A stretch of DNA of 64,000 nucleotides from Pseudomonas lopnurensis (GTDB lineage: Bacteria; Pseudomonadota; Gammaproteobacteria; Pseudomonadales; Pseudomonadaceae): NCBI RefSeq assembly GCF_015070855.1, contig NZ_JADDIX010000098.1:62315-126314 (forward strand), read 5' to 3'. Every line of letters starts with the position of its first letter. Within the stretch, counting starts at the first letter, position 1. Below, piece after piece: positions 27,938 to 35,158 of the stretch. A program made the position numbers and the translations under genes. Under the pieces are notes generated by a model. That model did not search any database. It saw only the letters and a program-made list of their open reading frames with translations, and was not told the origin of the DNA.

Positions 27938-28618
27938 CTAGACGCTGCCGCGATTGCCTGCGGGCGAGTCGGTGCAGAGCATGAAGCAGCGGAACAGCAT
28001 CACCGTGGGCAGCAGTTGCAGCAGGCCGATGGCACCATCGAGGAGAATCGCCGGCAGCACCTGCGGCGCCTCGCCGCCCCAGGCCTGGGCGGCGATCCAG
28101 GCTTCGAGCATCCACAGTGGCAGCAGCACCGCCAACACACAGCCGAGCACCAGCAGGAAGTGCCCGCGGGTGAGCATGAAACTCTGCTTGAGCGCGGCCA
28201 GCGGCGAGAGCCCGCGCAGCACCAGCAGGTATTCGGCGAAGGCGATCTTGACCATGATCCAGATACCCGGCAGCACGAACAGCGAGGCGCCGAGCAGGAT
28301 CAGCAGCGTACCGAGCGCCGAGAGCACCGCCAGCGCCGGCCACAGCGGCAGGGCGCGGGCCAGGACCGTGCGCGGCGCCGGATCATGGCCGCGGCTGCGG
28401 GCGTCGAGATAGAGGATCAGCGCGCCGACGTACAGCGGGTAGAAGAGCAGGCCCACCAGCAGTTCCTGGGCGGGCAGCGCGCCCTTGCCCAGCCAGTGCT
28501 CGACGGCCAGGTGCGTGCAACTCTCGAGCAGGATCAACGGCAGGCAGAGACGGACGATGGTGGCGAAATGGCGGGAATAGAAGAACCAGGCGTCGCGCAG
28601 GATGGCAAAAACGTTCAT
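27938..28618 (-). CDS. YciC-like multispanning membrane protein
   Basis: A 226-residue inner-membrane protein with five or six hydrophobic stretches (for example IVRLCLPLILLESCTHLAV, LLVGLLFYPLYVGALILYL, VLSALGTLLILLGASLFVLPGIWIMVKIAFAEYLLVL, LVLGCVLAVLLPLWML). The text GIWIMVKIAFAEYLLVLRGLSPLAALKQSFMLTRGHF matches the YciC/UPF0259 style (membrane entry followed by ALKQSF..T...). No function is established. Confidence 0.78.
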   Translation of the reverse strand: MNVFAILRDAWFFYSRHFATIVRLCLPLILLESCTHLAVEHWLGKGALPAQELLVGLLFYPLYVGALILYLDARSRGHDPAPRTVLARALPLWPALAVLSALGTLLILLGASLFVLPGIWIMVKIAFAEYLLVLRGLSPLAALKQSFMLTRGHFLLVLGCVLAVLLPLWMLEAWIAAQAWGGEAPQVLPAILLDGAIGLLQLLPTVMLFRCFMLCTDSPAGNRGSV

Positions 28619-28700
28619 CGCAACTCAGGACAGTGCATTCGATCGGGGCGCCACTTTAGCCGAAGTGCCGGGACATGCGCGATGTCGCCGTCCATACTAG

Positions 28701-28751
28701 GGGGCTGTTCCCGTTTCGTACGCGGCGCGCGTACGAAACGGGAACAGCCCC
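28701..28751. repeat. Perfect 24-bp inverted repeat with a 3-nt loop
   Basis: Left arm 28701-28724 (begins GGGGCTGTTCCCGTTTCG) and right arm 28728-28751 are exact reverse complements around a GCG loop; CTAG/CTAC flank the arms. It lies between the divergent yciC-like and NYN genes, about 25 bp upstream of the NYN start. No T-run follows either side, so it is not a simple terminator. The GGGGCTGTT tip resembles the MITE-like ends at 22877-23030. Confidence 0.8.
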
Positions 28752-28775
28752 TACATCATCCATCGCAGGCTGCCC

Positions 28776-29252
28776 GTGAAGAAGATCGCCCTGTTCGCCG
28801 ATGTGCAGAATCTCTATTACACGGTGCGCCAGGCCTACGGCTGCCACTTCGACTATGCGGCGCTGTGGGCGGACGTCAGTCAGCGCGGCGAGATCGTCGA
28901 GGCCTATGCCTATGCCATCGAGCGCGGCGATACCCGGCAGCAGCAGTTCCAGCGAATCCTGCGCAACCTCGGCTTCACCGTGAAGCTCAAACCCTACATC
29001 CAGCGCAGCGACGGCTCGGCCAAGGGCGACTGGGACGTGGGCATCACCATCGACATGCTGGACGCGGCGGGGCGGGTCGATGAGGTGGTGCTGGCTTCCG
29101 GCGATGGCGACTTCGACCTGCTGCTGGAGCGGGTGCGCGCCGGCGGCGCCGAGGCGAGCGCCTACGGCGTGCCGGGGCTCACCGCACAGTCGCTGATCCG
29201 CGCCGCGACGCGCTACGTGCCGATAGAGGGCGATCTGCTGCTGCGCAACTGA
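28776..29252 (+). CDS. NYN-domain (LabA-like) nuclease-family protein
   Basis: A 158-residue PIN-like NYN domain protein. Acidic active-site residues are visible in KIALFADVQNLYYTV (Asp near 9), GDWDVGITIDML (Asp near 88 and 94), and VLASGDGDFDLLLERV (Asp near 112 and 114). These domains coordinate metals and usually cut RNA. The specific substrate is unknown. The start codon lies just downstream of the 24-bp hairpin; the codon at 28776 is GTG. Confidence 0.88.
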   Translation: MKKIALFADVQNLYYTVRQAYGCHFDYAALWADVSQRGEIVEAYAYAIERGDTRQQQFQRILRNLGFTVKLKPYIQRSDGSAKGDWDVGITIDMLDAAGRVDEVVLASGDGDFDLLLERVRAGGAEASAYGVPGLTAQSLIRAATRYVPIEGDLLLRN

Positions 29253-29476
29253 GTGCGGTGGCCAACCGCCAGGCGTAGGGTGGATGACGCTTCACCCATC
29301 CACCGAGGCGGTGCCGGAAGAGTGCAGGATTTACCATGCAGGCGGCCCATGGTCGCTGCCGTTCGCCAGGTGGAAAATGCTTCGCAGTTTGCCCCCTACG
29401 CCTGCCAGGTAGGTGTGGCATACGTGCGTAGGGTGGATGACGCTTCACCATCCACCAGCGGCGGCTGAGTGCCGCC
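29253..29476. repeat. Intergenic region with two CGTAGGGTGGATGACGCTTCACC repeats
   Basis: Copies at 29274-29304 and 29427-29456 share the CGTAGGGTGGATGA core and a TCACC...ATCCACC end. The intervening sequence shows no gene. The region separates the NYN gene from the dxs remnant. Confidence 0.65.
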
Positions 29477-29743
29477 TCAGGCGTCGCCGAGCAACACCAG
29501 GCGCTTGCGCACCGCGGCTTCGATGCCGGCGGCATCCAGCCGGCATTCGGCGAGCATCTCGCTGGGTTTGGCATGCTCGACATAGTGGTCGGGCAGGCTC
29601 AGCTGGAGGATCGGCATGACGATGGCTTCGCCGGCGCCGAAATGGCCACCGCTCTGGCCGACACTGTAGAGCAGGTACAGGCGCAGTTCGCCGGTTTCAT
29701 TATCTTTGCTCAAAGTTCGGCAGACTTTTGAGGAGGGCAACAC
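29477..29743 (-). pseudogene. Internally deleted dxs remnant
   Basis: An 88-codon open frame joins two distant parts of Dxs. Residues 19-38 ([21 protein letters not shown]) match the Dxs N-terminus ([21 protein letters not shown] near residue 40-60 of the intact protein). The rest, [22 protein letters not shown] and onward, matches the last 50 residues of Dxs. About 520 codons are missing at a GGCGCCG-type junction. Nucleotide similarity to dxs at 32089-33984 is high in both parts. It lacks all catalytic and cofactor sites, so it cannot be an active synthase. Confidence 0.88.
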
Positions 29744-29748
29744 CAGTC

Positions 29749-31983
29749 TTAATGCGTGCGGGCAGGAAGTACACGCGGGTCGAGGTTTTCCGGCAGTGGG
29801 CGGGACACGGGCTTGTCGTCGAGGCGATCCTGTCGGCTCAGGCGATTGGCTGTCTTGTGCAGGTCCAGCACCAACTGGGCCAGCGCCTGCGCTGCCTGCA
29901 GGGTTTCGTCGGCGCTCTGGCTGGTACGCTCTGCCGCGCCGGTGATGGCCTGGGCCTGTTCGCTCACCGCATGCACCTGGGCCAGTTGCGACTGCATGGT
30001 CTGGTTGAGCTGGCCAAGGCGTCCCTGCATCGCTTCGACCTCCTGCTGGATGTGCTCAAGCGACTGTGTCGCTTCGTCGGAGCGAGTCACGCTGCGCTCG
30101 GCCGCCTCCTGGCAGCTCCGCATGCTGCTCATGGCTTCGAGCGTCTGCTGGCGCACCCCGCCGAGGGTACTGGTGATCTCTTCTGTGGCCTGGGCCGTGC
30201 GCCGGGCCAGATTGCGCACTTCATCGGCGACCACGGCGAAACCGCGACCGCTTTCCCCGGCTCGAGCCGCCTCGATGGCGGCATTCAGGGCGAGCAGGTT
30301 GGTTTGGTCGGCGATGGCATGGATCGCTTCGCTGATGTGCTGGATTTCTTCGGTCTGCTTGTTCAGCGCCTGCAGCATCTGGCTGGACTGCTCGACGCGT
30401 TCGGCAAGCTGGGCCACCTCTCTGGCGTTCTGCGCGACGGCTGCGCCGCCCTGCCGCGTCATTGCCAGTGCCTGGCGCGAGGCTTTCTCGCTGTCGAGAA
30501 TGTGCTCGGCAGCCTCGCCGATGCTGTGGTTCACCTCGACCATGGCGCGTGCGGTGGAGACCGCGGCCGCCTGACCCTGGGCTGCGCACTTGCCTGCATT
30601 GGCGGAGGTTCTGCTGAGCCCGGTGGAGGTCTGCTGCAGCGCCTGGCCGGCAGTCACGATGCCCTGCATGGTGTGATCCATCTTGTCGACGAAGCTGTTG
30701 ACCCAGCCGGCCAGGACGCCGGCCTCGTCACTGGCGAAGCGCTCCAGGGCCAGGCGATTGCTCAGCGGCGCACCGCATTCGGCCGTTTCCAGGAAGAAGT
30801 CGGAGAGCGCCTGCAGCTTGCGCGTGCGTGGGCGCAGGCTGAAGGCCCAGAAACCCAGCAGCATGGCTGCGGCGCTCGCCATGCCCAGGGGCGCCGCATA
30901 GGCAGGCAGCCACTGCTGCAGCTGCCATTGAAGCAGGGCCAGGACCAGCAGACCGAACAGCAGGTGGCTGGAGAGCGTGTAGCTGAGGCTGCGCTGGCGG
31001 TAGACCTCTTCCAAGTCGCCTTCGCACATCAGTCCCCAGGTATCCGGCGAGCCAGGCATGCGCAGGGTCAGGCCGGCGCCGATCACCGGCACGTGGCGGT
31101 AGTCCGGGTAACCCGGGTAGAGCACGAACAGGTTGCTGCCATGGCGAATGGTTTCGCGCACGCCCGGATGGAGTTGGTCAGTGGCGGGGTCGGTGAAGCG
31201 CAGTTCGAATTCGGTGTGTTTTTGCACCTTTACCGTGCCGAATGGCGTGCGCACGCCCTGTTTCAGGTTGTCGCCACCGCTGAAGGTGTCGTCCTCGAAG
31301 CGTGAGCGTGACAGCGCAGTGCCCGGCGCGATTTGCGCGTCATGGCGGCTTTCGACCATGAACAGGTAATTGTCGCCGGAGTCGCGATAGACGTGGCCGG
31401 CCTCGCGCTGGATGAGGTCACTCATCACATCGTTGGGGATGCGCGCGCACAGACAGCCGACGACCTTGCCGGCATGACGAAGCGGCTGGTGGAACATCAG
31501 GGTAACGGCGTCATGGAACTTCGAGGTGGTCGGCTCCAGCTGCAGGGTCAGCTGGTCGACATAGGGACCATGCAGGTAAGGCCCTGCCAGACCGGCTTTC
31601 AAGGCTTCGCCATCGTGGCGTTGAGCGACGCGTGGGGCGTGGGTGGAGACGAGGATGTGCCCGCCGGCATCTACGACGAACAGCTCGGAGACTTCCGGCA
31701 TGTTCTTGCGCGCCTGCTGCAGGGCGTCGAGGCTGGGGGTCGGCCAGGCTTGTGCCAGACCGTTACCGATCAACTCCAGTTCCTGCCAGTGCTGCGCGGC
31801 CCATTCCAGCAGGAGGTCGACGCGTGTCTGTGCCAGGCCGGTGAAGGTTTTCTCGACCCGTTCGGCCTGGCCTGAATTGAGCAGCCAGGACCAGCGCATG
31901 GCCAGCTTGCCGGTCTTGCCGAACCAGGGCAGCCAGCGGCGCTCACGGCCTTTGAAGGCCATCTGATGACTGCGCAACGGCAT
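29749..31983 (-). CDS. Methyl-accepting chemotaxis protein with a Cache-like N-terminal region
   Basis: A 744-residue chemoreceptor. The C-terminal half holds the coiled-coil signalling domain with the conserved hairpin tip [39 protein letters not shown] (about 550-590). Residues 85-300 look Cache-like ([43 protein letters not shown]). Hydrophobic segments are seen only at about 335-355 and 365-385, with none at the N-terminus, so the sensor is not obviously periplasmic. The ATG at 31983 follows AGGGAGGGG, and an in-frame TAA lies five codons upstream, so no longer start exists. It lies between dxs and a dxs remnant. Confidence 0.92.
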
Positions 31984-32088
31984 GTCCCCTCCCTGTCGTT
32001 ACTGTAACGACTCGTAACCGCGCAACTGCGTTCGAGAGAGGTAAGCAATAAACAGGCCGGAATCGCTCCGGCCATGCGTGCAGGGGGG

Positions 32089-33984
32089 TCAGTGTGGCAG
32101 CTGCGCCAGGCGTATACGTACCGCCGCCTCGATGCCGGCTTCGTCGAGGCCGCATTCGGCGAGCATCTCGCTGGGTTTGGCATGCTCGACGTAATGGTCT
32201 GGCAGGCCCAGCTGGAGGATCGGCATGACGATGGCTTCGCTGGCGAGGAATTCGGCCACCGCGCTGCCGGCGCCGCCCATGATGCTGTTTTCCTCGATGG
32301 TCACCAGCAGTTCGTGGCTGGCCGCCAGCTGGCGCAGCAGCGCCTCGTCCAGCGGCTTGACGAAGCGCATGTCGACCACCGTGGCATCCAGCGTCTGGCC
32401 AACCTGCAGCGCCTCGGCCAACTGCACGCCGAACACCAGCAGCGCGACCTTGGTGCCCTGGCGGCGCGTCAGCGCCTTGCCGATTTCCAGCGGCGCGAGG
32501 CCGGGCTCGATACGGGCGTTCGGCCCGCTGCCACGCGGGTAGCGCACCGCCGCCGGGCCTTCGAACTGGTAGCCGGTGGTGAGCATGCGGCGCATCTCGT
32601 TCTCGTCGCTGGGGGTCATCACCAGCATGCCGGGGATGCAGCGCAGGTAGGAGAGGTCGAAGCTGCCGGCGTGGGTCGGGCCGTCTTCGCCGACCAGCCC
32701 GGCGCGGTCGATGGCGAACAGCACGTCGAGGTTCTGCACCGCGACGTCGTGAATCAGTTGGTCGTAGGCGCGCTGGAGGAAGGTCGAGTAGATCGCCACC
32801 ACCGGCTTGAGCCCTTCGCAGGCCATGCCGGCGGCCAGCGTCACGGCATGCTGCTCGGCGATGGCGACGTCGAAGTAGCGCTGCGGGAAGCGCTCGCTGA
32901 AGGCCACCAGGTCCGAGCCTTCCTTCATCGCCGGGGTGATGCCGGTCAGGCGCGGATCGGCCTCGGCCATGTCGCACAGCCACTGGCCGAACACGTTGGA
33001 GTATTTCGGCCCCGCGGCCTTCTTCGGCGCGGCCGGCGCATCCACCGGCTCCAGCTTGCTGATGGCGTGCCAGGTGATCGGGTCGGCCTCGGCCGGGGCG
33101 AAGCCCTTGCCCTTCTTGGTCACCACGTGGAGGAACTGCGGGCCGTCGAGGTCGCGCATGTTGCGCAGGGTGGCGATCAGCGTCGGCAGGTCGTGGCCGT
33201 CGATGGGGCCGATGTAGTTCCAGCCGAGCTCCTCGAACAGGGTGCCGGGCACCAGCATGCCCTTGGCGTATTCCTCGGTGCGGCGGGCGATTTCCCAGGC
33301 GCCCGGCAGGCGCGAGAGGATCTTCTTGCTGCCCTCGCGCATGCTCGAATAGGTGCGGCTGGAGAGGATCTTGGCCAGGTAGTTGGACAGGCCGCCGACG
33401 TTGCGCGAGATCGACATGTCGTTGTCGTTGAGCACCACCAGCATGTCGGCGCCGACTTCCGGGGCGTGGTTGAGCGCCTCGAAGGCCATGCCGGCGGTCA
33501 GCGCGCCGTCGCCGATCACTGCGATGGACTTGCGCTTCTCGCCCTTCTGGCGGGCGGCAATGGCCATCCCCAGGGCGGCGCTGATCGAGGTGCTGGAGTG
33601 GCCGACGCCGAAGGTGTCGTATTCGCTCTCGCTGCGCCGCGGGAAGGCGGCCAGGCCGTCCTTCTGGCGCAGGCTGGCCATGCGCGCACGGCGGCCGGTG
33701 AGGATCTTGTGCGGATAGGCCTGATGGCCGACGTCCCAGACCAGGCGGTCGTCCGGGGTGTCGTAGACGTAATGCAGGGCGATGGTCAGCTCGATCACGC
33801 CGAGGCCGGCACCGAAGTGGCCGCCGGACTGGCCGACGCTGAACAGCAGGTCCTGGCGCAGTTCGTTGGCGAGCTCTTCGAGTTCCGCCTCGCCCAGCCG
33901 GCGCAGTTGCTCGGGCGTGGCCGCACGGTCAAGGAGGGGCGTTGCGGGGCGTACCCGAGGAATCTCATGGAACGTCTTGGGCAT
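32089..33984 (-). CDS. dxs: 1-deoxy-D-xylulose-5-phosphate synthase Dxs
   Basis: The 631-residue thiamine-diphosphate enzyme that condenses pyruvate and glyceraldehyde-3-phosphate in the MEP isoprenoid pathway. Motifs: [19 protein letters not shown] (His near 56), [17 protein letters not shown] (near 85), the ThDP motif [15 protein letters not shown] with NDNDMSIS (near 160-190), [18 protein letters not shown] (catalytic Glu near 380) and the [12 protein letters not shown] motif (near 425). The ATG at 33984 gives the family start [13 protein letters not shown]. It follows ispA after 283 bp of repeat-containing spacer. Confidence 0.97.
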
Positions 33985-34170
33985 CGGGCGAATCGTTTTT
34001 GTGAAAAAAGAGCGGCAGTTTACCCGAAGGGCCCTGCGATAAGAACGACCCTGCGTCCAGCGCGCTGCCGTTCGTTCCGGTCGGGCCTGGTGGGGGACGC
34101 GCTCCCGCGGCGATCGCAGGCAAGGCGGGTTGCAACCCGCCCTACGAAGCTGCAAGCGCGTGCGATCTCC

Positions 34171-34238
34171 TGTAGGAGCGAGCCATGCTCGCGAACCTCG
34201 GCCACACAAGAACATCGCGGGCATGGCCCGCTCCTACA
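34171..34238. repeat. REP-like hairpin, TGTAGGAGC family, between ispA and dxs
   Basis: TGTAGGAGCGAGCCATGCTCGCGA on the left pairs imperfectly with TCGCGGGCATGGCCCGCTCCTACA on the right. A short GGCGGGTTGCAACCCGCC palindrome lies just upstream at about 34124-34142. Confidence 0.8.
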
Positions 34239-34267
34239 AGAAGCAGGTGGCGCCTGCCGAACGGAGA

Positions 34268-35158
34268 TCAGTTGCGCCGTTCGACGATATAGCGCGCCAG
34301 CTCGCGCAGCGGCTCGGCGGCGACAGCGAACGGGCGCAACGCGTCCAGCGCCAGGTCGTGCAGCTCCAGCGCATAGGCCTTGGCCGCCTCCATGCCGAGC
34401 AGGGCAGGGTAGGTGGGCTTGTCGCGGGCGATGTCGGCGCCCTGGTGCTTGCCGAGGGTGGCGGTGTCGCTTTCCACGTCGAGGATGTCGTCCTGCACCT
34501 GGAAGGCCAGGCCGACGGCCTGGGCATACTGGCTCAGCGAGGCGAGGCTACCGGCATCGGCATGGCCGCTGGAGAGGGCGCCGAGCTGCACGCTGGCTTC
34601 GATCAGGGCGCCGGTCTTGTGCCGGTGCATCAGTTCCAGCGCCGCGCGGTCGAGCTTGCGGCCCACCGAGCCGAGGTCGATGGCCTGGCCGCCGACCATG
34701 CCCGCGGGGCCGGCGGCGCGGGCCAGGACGCCGAACATCCGCAGGCGCAGCAGCGGGTCCGCGGGGTTGAGCTGCGGCGCCGCGAGGACGTCGAAGGCCA
34801 GGCTCTGCAGGCCATCGCCGGCGAGAATCGCACAGGCCTCGTCGAAAGCCTTGTGGGTGGTCGGCTGGCCGCGGCGCAGGTCGTCGTCGTCCATCGCCGG
34901 CAGGTCGTCGTGCACCAGTGAATAGGCGTGGATCAGCTCCACCGCGCAGGCCGCGCCGTCAGCCTGGGCCTTGTCGCCGCCCAGTGCTTCGTTGGCGGCG
35001 TAGACCAGCAGCGGGCGCACCCGCTTGCCGCCGTTCATCACGCTGTAGCGCATCGCCTGGTAGAGACGTTCGAGCTGCGCGTGCGGCGGTACGAAGAGGG
35101 CCTCGAGGCGGCTGTCGACGCGCTGCTGGCAGCTTCTCTGGTAATCGCCGATCGTCAT
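34268..35158 (-). CDS. ispA: Farnesyl diphosphate synthase IspA
   Basis: A 296-residue short-chain (E)-prenyltransferase making farnesyl diphosphate from IPP and DMAPP. The first aspartate-rich motif is [16 protein letters not shown] (near 82-97) and the second is [13 protein letters not shown] (near 222-234). [10 protein letters not shown] near residue 42 binds IPP. The ATG overlaps the xseB stop by 4 bases, the classic xseB-ispA-dxs arrangement. Confidence 0.96.

Follow-up and report, generated by a model that had tools for sequence, protein, structure and literature searches.

Pseudomonas stutzeri is now assigned to Stutzerimonas. Homology-facilitated illegitimate recombination (HFIR) is known from P. 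stutzeri, Acinetobacter baylyi and Streptococcus pneumoniae; it takes place during natural transformation and requires RecA. Two papers, which cite the 2003 work of Meier and Wackernagel, report microhomology of 3–10 bp in most cases together with a deletion that is generally about the size of the insert, roughly 1 kb (PMC3240628, PMC2884548). For S. pneumoniae, another study models duplication via the sister chromatid during transformation (PMC3784515). Small variable segments between strains of a species have also been described in one of these papers and ascribed to illegitimate recombination (PMC2884548).

Here we analyse a 64,000-nt stretch of DNA (the window) from Pseudomonas lopnurensis, probably a member of the genus Stutzerimonas, in which a short frame made of dxs pieces lies beyond a chemoreceptor gene that follows the intact dxs. 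With a probability of roughly 0.8, we read the remnant as the displaced original end of dxs, left when DNA from a related genus that carried the chemoreceptor gene recombined into dxs. The locus resembles HFIR in that one end of the foreign DNA appears to have been held by homology and the other joined illegitimately, possibly through a short microhomology, and the laboratory demonstration was made in the same genus (P. stutzeri). It differs in that about 90 nt of resident DNA is duplicated here, whereas HFIR generally deletes about 1 kb; in addition, the donor side itself seems rearranged, with a leader joined to a dxs 5′ piece, and transformation is a putative route here. The S. pneumoniae merodiploids share the outcome that donor DNA with one chromosomal block in common leads to duplicated resident DNA, but those duplications span about 100 to about 900 kb and arise between repeats, in contrast to about 90 nt inside one gene (PMC3784515). 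Like the small variable segments, the insertion is small, at one locus and without a known mobile element; unlike them, it has a nameable donor type, crossover interval and scar parts (PMC2884548). The literature searched, with partial journal coverage, yielded no published account of horizontal transfer of Stutzerimonas dxs or of this locus.

The remnant frame and its native surroundings

Comparison of the remnant with the genome's own dxs by blastn gave two collinear blocks, one of 61 nt on the N side (84% identity, window 29630–29690 against 33805–33865, E 1e-14) and one of 161 nt on the C side (86%, 29497–29656 against 32106–32266, E 2e-51). At these E-values there is no room for chance as the source of the matches, and a search of the whole genome returned three matches, the remnant itself and the two dxs blocks, all on contig C99. 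Between the blocks about 520 codons are absent, from codon ~60 to codon 583 of a dxs of 631 codons. The earlier note had described exactly such a frame, an N-terminal Dxs block joined to the Dxs C-terminus and similar in both parts to the intact dxs 2.5 kb away, and this description is borne out; the nucleotide alignment that it proposed identifies both blocks as true dxs pieces fused in frame. Its account of the N-terminal part stands for dxs codons ~40–60, which are present, but not for the first ~15 codons of the frame, which are not dxs and fall within 46 nt that match another gene's leader.

Table 1. Features of the dxs locus in window coordinates
Feature	Coordinates	Strand	Remarks
NYN-domain gene	28776..29252	(+)	Native downstream neighbour in this part of the genus, by Pfam and synteny
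Native dxs–NYN intergenic stretch	29253..29476	.	GGTGGATGG..CATCCACCCTACG-type repeats
Remnant frame	29477..29743	(-)	88 codons, GTG start
C block of remnant	29477..29629	(-)	Resident dxs from codon 583 to the stop, at its native site, by synteny and tail comparison
N block of remnant	29630..29694	(-)	dxs codons ~40–60; nearest g15 (61/65 to G191), then g9
Leader piece of btuB-type TonB receptor gene	29694..29739	(-)	46 nt; ends just past ATG (29698–29700)
Methyl-accepting chemotaxis protein gene (MCP)	29749..31983	(-)	Probably imported; Pfam chemoreceptor signalling domain, orthologues
dxs–MCP intergenic stretch	31984..32088	(-)	Terminator-like inverted repeat by eye; unlike native dxs 3′ flank
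Non-resident tail of intact dxs	32089..32148	(-)	Putative start of imported segment, by tail-site comparison
Intact dxs, hybrid gene	32089..33984	(-)	Resident trunk and non-resident tail of ~20 codons

No Pfam family was found in the remnant at E ≤ 0.001, and the intact dxs carries all three of its domains (N-terminal, pyrimidine-binding and C-terminal). The remnant has substitutions (G to S, G to R and Q to L) at residues that are invariant in 79 of 79 aligned dxs rows, which stand for 71 distinct genes, the genome's own intact dxs included, as eight genomes are counted twice. Over 93 nt its C block departs from the intact dxs by 7 changes, of which 3 affect first codon positions, and the ATG of the btuB-type leader (29700) opens a different frame that stops after 33 residues. 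Because these invariant residues are altered and the btuB-type ATG is out of frame, the remnant is unlikely to work as a Dxs fragment and is best seen as dead scrap. A plasmid origin was rejected: among 72,556 plasmid records, the lone match to the remnant is at an annotated dxs.

For 52 of 55 other same-genus (Stutzerimonas) genomes the locus was fetched (G021, G024 and G039 were left out), and 51 of these loci contain dxs; neighbours were tabulated as one best match per gene, with dxs matches under 45% not shown. The MCP is present in none of the 51 fetched dxs stretches, and dxs is followed by an NYN gene in 26 of them, with a gap of 94–336 nt in 24 and of 683 and 1272 nt in the remaining two; of the genomes examined, this one alone thus has the chemoreceptor inserted here. 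The remnant's own 3′ flank, with its GGTGGATGG..CATCCACCCTACG-type repeats and then the NYN gene, is the form found behind dxs in other NYN-bearing Stutzerimonas. Measured against the sister genome G034, no resident DNA has been lost between dxs and NYN, and about 90 nt is there twice. The repeats (window 29253–29476) occur in varying forms in the dxs–NYN gaps of other Stutzerimonas. In a separate observation, the region around the sole, short remnant match of genome G041 (locus L079) is without dxs.

The chemoreceptor gene and the leader piece behind it

Of 97 named relatives the best 80 were used, and in 13 of these dxs is immediately followed by an MCP orthologue with 75–82% identity; all 13 are titled Pseudomonas and they include P. 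chengduensis, P. toyotomiensis, P. straminea, P. kuykendallii and P. punonensis. Across 398 family genomes, 15 match the MCP stretch at E ≤ 1e-150, the genome itself included; these strong matches fall in 3 of 19 genera (its own, g8 and g15), with no other Stutzerimonas among them. The MCP is directly behind dxs in 12 of the 14 other family loci and ~1.8 kb behind it in 2. Eight of the 14 belong to genomes already in the named set, and as each of these doubled genomes contributes two loci, the 27 donor-type loci come from 19 genomes; with both sets combined, the MCP is directly behind dxs in 17 of 19 distinct genomes. In a tree of 20 of the 80 named loci, 6 of the 14 family loci and the window's MCP, the last nests in an 18-row clade with support 99/99; several branches, that of L210 included, drew a long-branch warning. 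Identities of at most 82% for the MCP and at most 44/57 (g15 genomes) for the dxs tail described below place the true donor outside the sampled genomes.

Nine bases past the MCP stop begins the leader piece, which matches the stretch around the start codon of the TonB-receptor gene behind the MCP in loci L099 and L101 (93% over 46 nt; 91% in L098), among matches that begin before query position 55. The 46 nt are found at 83–93% in 8 of the 27 donor-type loci, from six genomes, and also at 89% in MCP-free loci of G334 and G283. We call the receptor btuB-like on the basis of its TonB-receptor domains and of a cobalamin riboswitch (Rfam RF00174, 82.7 bits), which in L099 lies between the MCP and the leader piece; window positions 28500–34500 contain no riboswitch at Rfam gathering scores. 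The genome's own btuB leader was rejected as the source of this spacer, as the genome holds no second copy and its other matches (E up to 10) span only 14–20 nt.

Several Pseudomonas have a TonB-receptor gene after dxs, with the MCP between them or not, and in L099 (L099:8300-8597) the riboswitch precedes the receptor. In a set of nine loci, six have the receptor gene behind dxs without an MCP (58–96% identity; four matches span residues 1–621 and two span 29–621), that of G302 has the MCP and no receptor match, and two have neither. The MCP may be an insert into the dxs/TonB-receptor junction in those Pseudomonas too. Inspection by eye shows the 10-mer CTGGTGTTGC twice on the minus strand, at the MCP–leader joint (window 29737–29746) and in the C block (29491–29500), which may be chance or a trace of joining.

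Ancestry of the intact dxs and of the N block

Codons 1–609 of the intact dxs are identical to G034 at 1737 of 1827 nt, and the gene changes character near its end. Counting from the ECGLD codon, over −81 to +8 the intact gene agrees with the C block at 84/90 nt and with G034 at 81/90, and the C block agrees with G034 at 79/90. Over +9 to +65, the C block agrees with G034 at 52/57, and the intact gene agrees with either at 39/57. We compared 26 Stutzerimonas loci with the 6 donor-type loci picked as nearest to the MCP. From +11 onward, 21 sites tell the two groups apart: the intact dxs has the donor-type base at 13 of them, the resident base at 6 and neither base at 2, and for the C block the same counts are 1, 18 and 2. 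The intact dxs thus turns from resident (−81 to +8) to non-resident (from +11 on) within the gene and in frame, with the last resident-only site at ~32169 and the first non-resident site at ~32146. At the protein level, the remnant ends in ..RKRLVLLGDA, the form seen in other Stutzerimonas with NYN, and the intact dxs in ..RIRLAQLPH. From these identities and diagnostic sites it follows that the C block represents the original dxs 3′ end and that the tail of the working gene is probably foreign. The best reading is that the working dxs carries a foreign tail of ~20 codons, with a crossover between −12 and +11 (codons ~606–613).

The tail has relatives at a distance. Over +9 to +65, the first dxs set offers as its nearest genes that of one Stutzerimonas, at 42/57, and those of donor type, at 41/57, and the best g15 genomes, G239 and G378, reach 44/57. 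A search of the 398 family genomes found the tail in 16, the genome itself included, at 80–89% over 44–55 nt; of the 15 others, 7 belong to genus g15 and 2 to Stutzerimonas. The dxs of G243 (g15) is 92% identical to the tail region over 62 nt, ~20 nt of which precede the switch, and in three g15 genomes (G239, G378 and G191) the Dxs protein ends in RLAQLP plus one residue. That the tail is without a close match counts against a clean assignment of its source. Elsewhere in the gene, the identity of the intact dxs to G034 dips to 91% and 87% at alignment positions 271–360 and 361–450, where the best single other dxs genes reach 96% and 92%; window 33535–33714 (approximately dxs codons 91–150) is possibly a small mosaic patch.

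The N block differs from the C block in ancestry. Over 61 nt it agrees with donor-type dxs genes at up to 54 positions, with G034 at 52 and with the genome's own dxs at 50, and of its five diagnostic sites four have the donor-type base and one the resident base; the donor base occurs in 0, 2 and 0 of the 26 Stutzerimonas at three of the four and in 19 of 26 at the other. In a tree of these 61 nt, built without the loci of the eight doubled genomes, the 12 rows nearest to the N block are all donor-type, with supports of 0.58–0.95 along the path. Matches to the N block are found in 146 of the 398 family genomes, the best in G191 (g15; 94%, 61/65), which has no MCP behind dxs; g9 reaches 91–92%, G034 87% and the genome's own dxs 83–84%. 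A second dxs N block was found in none of the 27 donor-type loci (19 genomes). The N block is most likely foreign, from g15 or possibly g9, an ancestry that appears well supported but concerns a short stretch. At the N|C joint, donor-type genes read ..GGTGCCGG(C/G).., G034 reads ..CTCGCCGGCGAAGCC.. and the remnant reads ..GGCGCCGGCGAAGCC..; the joint has GCCGGC in common if the resident allele was G034-like, and a shorter stretch if it was as in the intact dxs today (GCCAGC). Genome G107 has two equal N-block matches (G107:C1:747006-747069 and 2050624-2050687, 83% over 64 nt) and may carry two dxs genes.

Proposed origin of the locus and its alternatives

On the preferred reading, the DNA that recombined into the resident Stutzerimonas dxs would have come from a Pseudomonas belonging to another genus, in which dxs, MCP and btuB leader follow one another in this order. 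At one end, a homologous crossover at codons ~606–613 would have produced a resident trunk with a donor tail, followed by the donor MCP. The other end would be illegitimate: the btuB leader joined to a short foreign dxs piece (codons ~40–60), and this piece joined in turn to the resident dxs at codon ~583, possibly through the GC-rich microhomology GCCGGC. The displaced resident 3′ end would have been kept in place and would now be decaying. The data show the synteny, the ancestry of the C block, the non-resident tail, the leader piece and the altered invariant residues; entry by natural transformation, one event and not several, a single donor for all pieces and the order of the joins are our inferences. 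A gene with a Competence (ComEC-type) domain is present in the genome, and this family also matches 10 of 14 control genomes. Counted against the import model are the presence of the leader in just 8 of the 27 donor-type loci and of the N block as a second copy in none of them, the two Stutzerimonas among the tail matches, and the near equality of g9 and g15 for the N block. To these are added the unsampled true donor, the shortness of the N block and its one diagnostic base that is common in Stutzerimonas, the lack of an MCP behind dxs in G191, the dependence of a six-base microhomology on a G034-like resident allele, and the ~90 nt of resident sequence in both copies, more than a simple single crossover gives.

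A variant of the same import, possible but doubtful, would have the donor DNA enter circularised (or in tandem), with its ends at the btuB start and dxs codon ~40 already joined, and integrate by a single crossover. Integration would leave a hybrid intact dxs, the MCP, the leader and another hybrid dxs, and a later deletion would have taken ~1.5 kb from the latter, from codon ~60 to codon ~583; this route accounts for the foreign dxs 5′ piece behind the donor leader. A single crossover leaves each resident position once, yet ~90 nt (−81 to +8) is resident in both copies (84/90), beyond what such a crossover simply yields; this route would need gene conversion as well as the later deletion. Also weighed was the history given in the earlier note, a tandem duplication of the resident dxs with an in-frame deletion in the second copy, here with a later insertion of the MCP between the copies. 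The 90 nt of resident sequence shared by the C block and the intact dxs, in which 6 sites set the two apart from G034, would suit it, as would the reading frame kept across the junction, but a kept frame alone has about one chance in three. The blocks differ in ancestry, the N block being closer to other genera than to the genome's own dxs and the C block being resident; the C piece occupies the place where dxs natively ends and still has the native flank behind it; the odd tail within the genus is that of the intact dxs and not that of the remnant; and the remnant is separated from dxs by a seemingly foreign chemoreceptor gene, whose adjacency to dxs is known in other genomes, and by a btuB-type leader that adjoins the N block. 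Nor, then, do both blocks seem to derive from the neighbouring gene, with the C block resident and the N block (61–65 nt) nearer other genera. We consider duplication with deletion highly improbable.

Slightly less credit still goes to ancestral retention, in which dxs–MCP would be an old family order kept here and lost in other Stutzerimonas. Several Pseudomonas species groups do have this order, but the MCP is in 0 of 51 same-genus loci, strong matches to it come from 3 of 19 genera (this one among them), and beyond the MCP the native dxs end and flank persist. An assembly artefact fusing two organisms is about as hard to credit: the genome is a draft of 100 contigs, but the locus lies on a single 172 kb contig, the estimated contamination is 0, and over a few hundred bases the sequence changes back and forth between resident and foreign. 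Least credible of all is a functional small protein built from Dxs pieces. The frame is open for its 88 codons, and set against this are the G to S, G to R and Q to L changes at residues invariant in all 79 dxs rows, the 7 C-block changes over 93 nt (3 at first codon positions), the lack of a Pfam match and the imported btuB-type ATG in another frame.

Import from another genus thus remains the preferred reading, and the locus is most likely a two-source recombination scar of such an import, a further example of a known process. More tentatively, and with considerable doubt, it may be a base-level fossil of inter-genus transformation, in which donor ends already joined (btuB start to dxs codon ~40) entered through one homologous and one microhomology joint, changing the end of a core gene, delivering a chemoreceptor and leaving scrap from two sources; its form would be that of HFIR, with duplication instead of deletion. 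The locus suggests that a chemoreceptor gene can cross genera without a visible mobile element, with a shared neighbour, dxs, as anchor, and that a frame with the look of a shrunken duplicate can be what is left of the end of the original gene. Natural cases with a nameable donor type, crossover interval and illegitimate joints offer tests for laboratory models of foreign DNA uptake.
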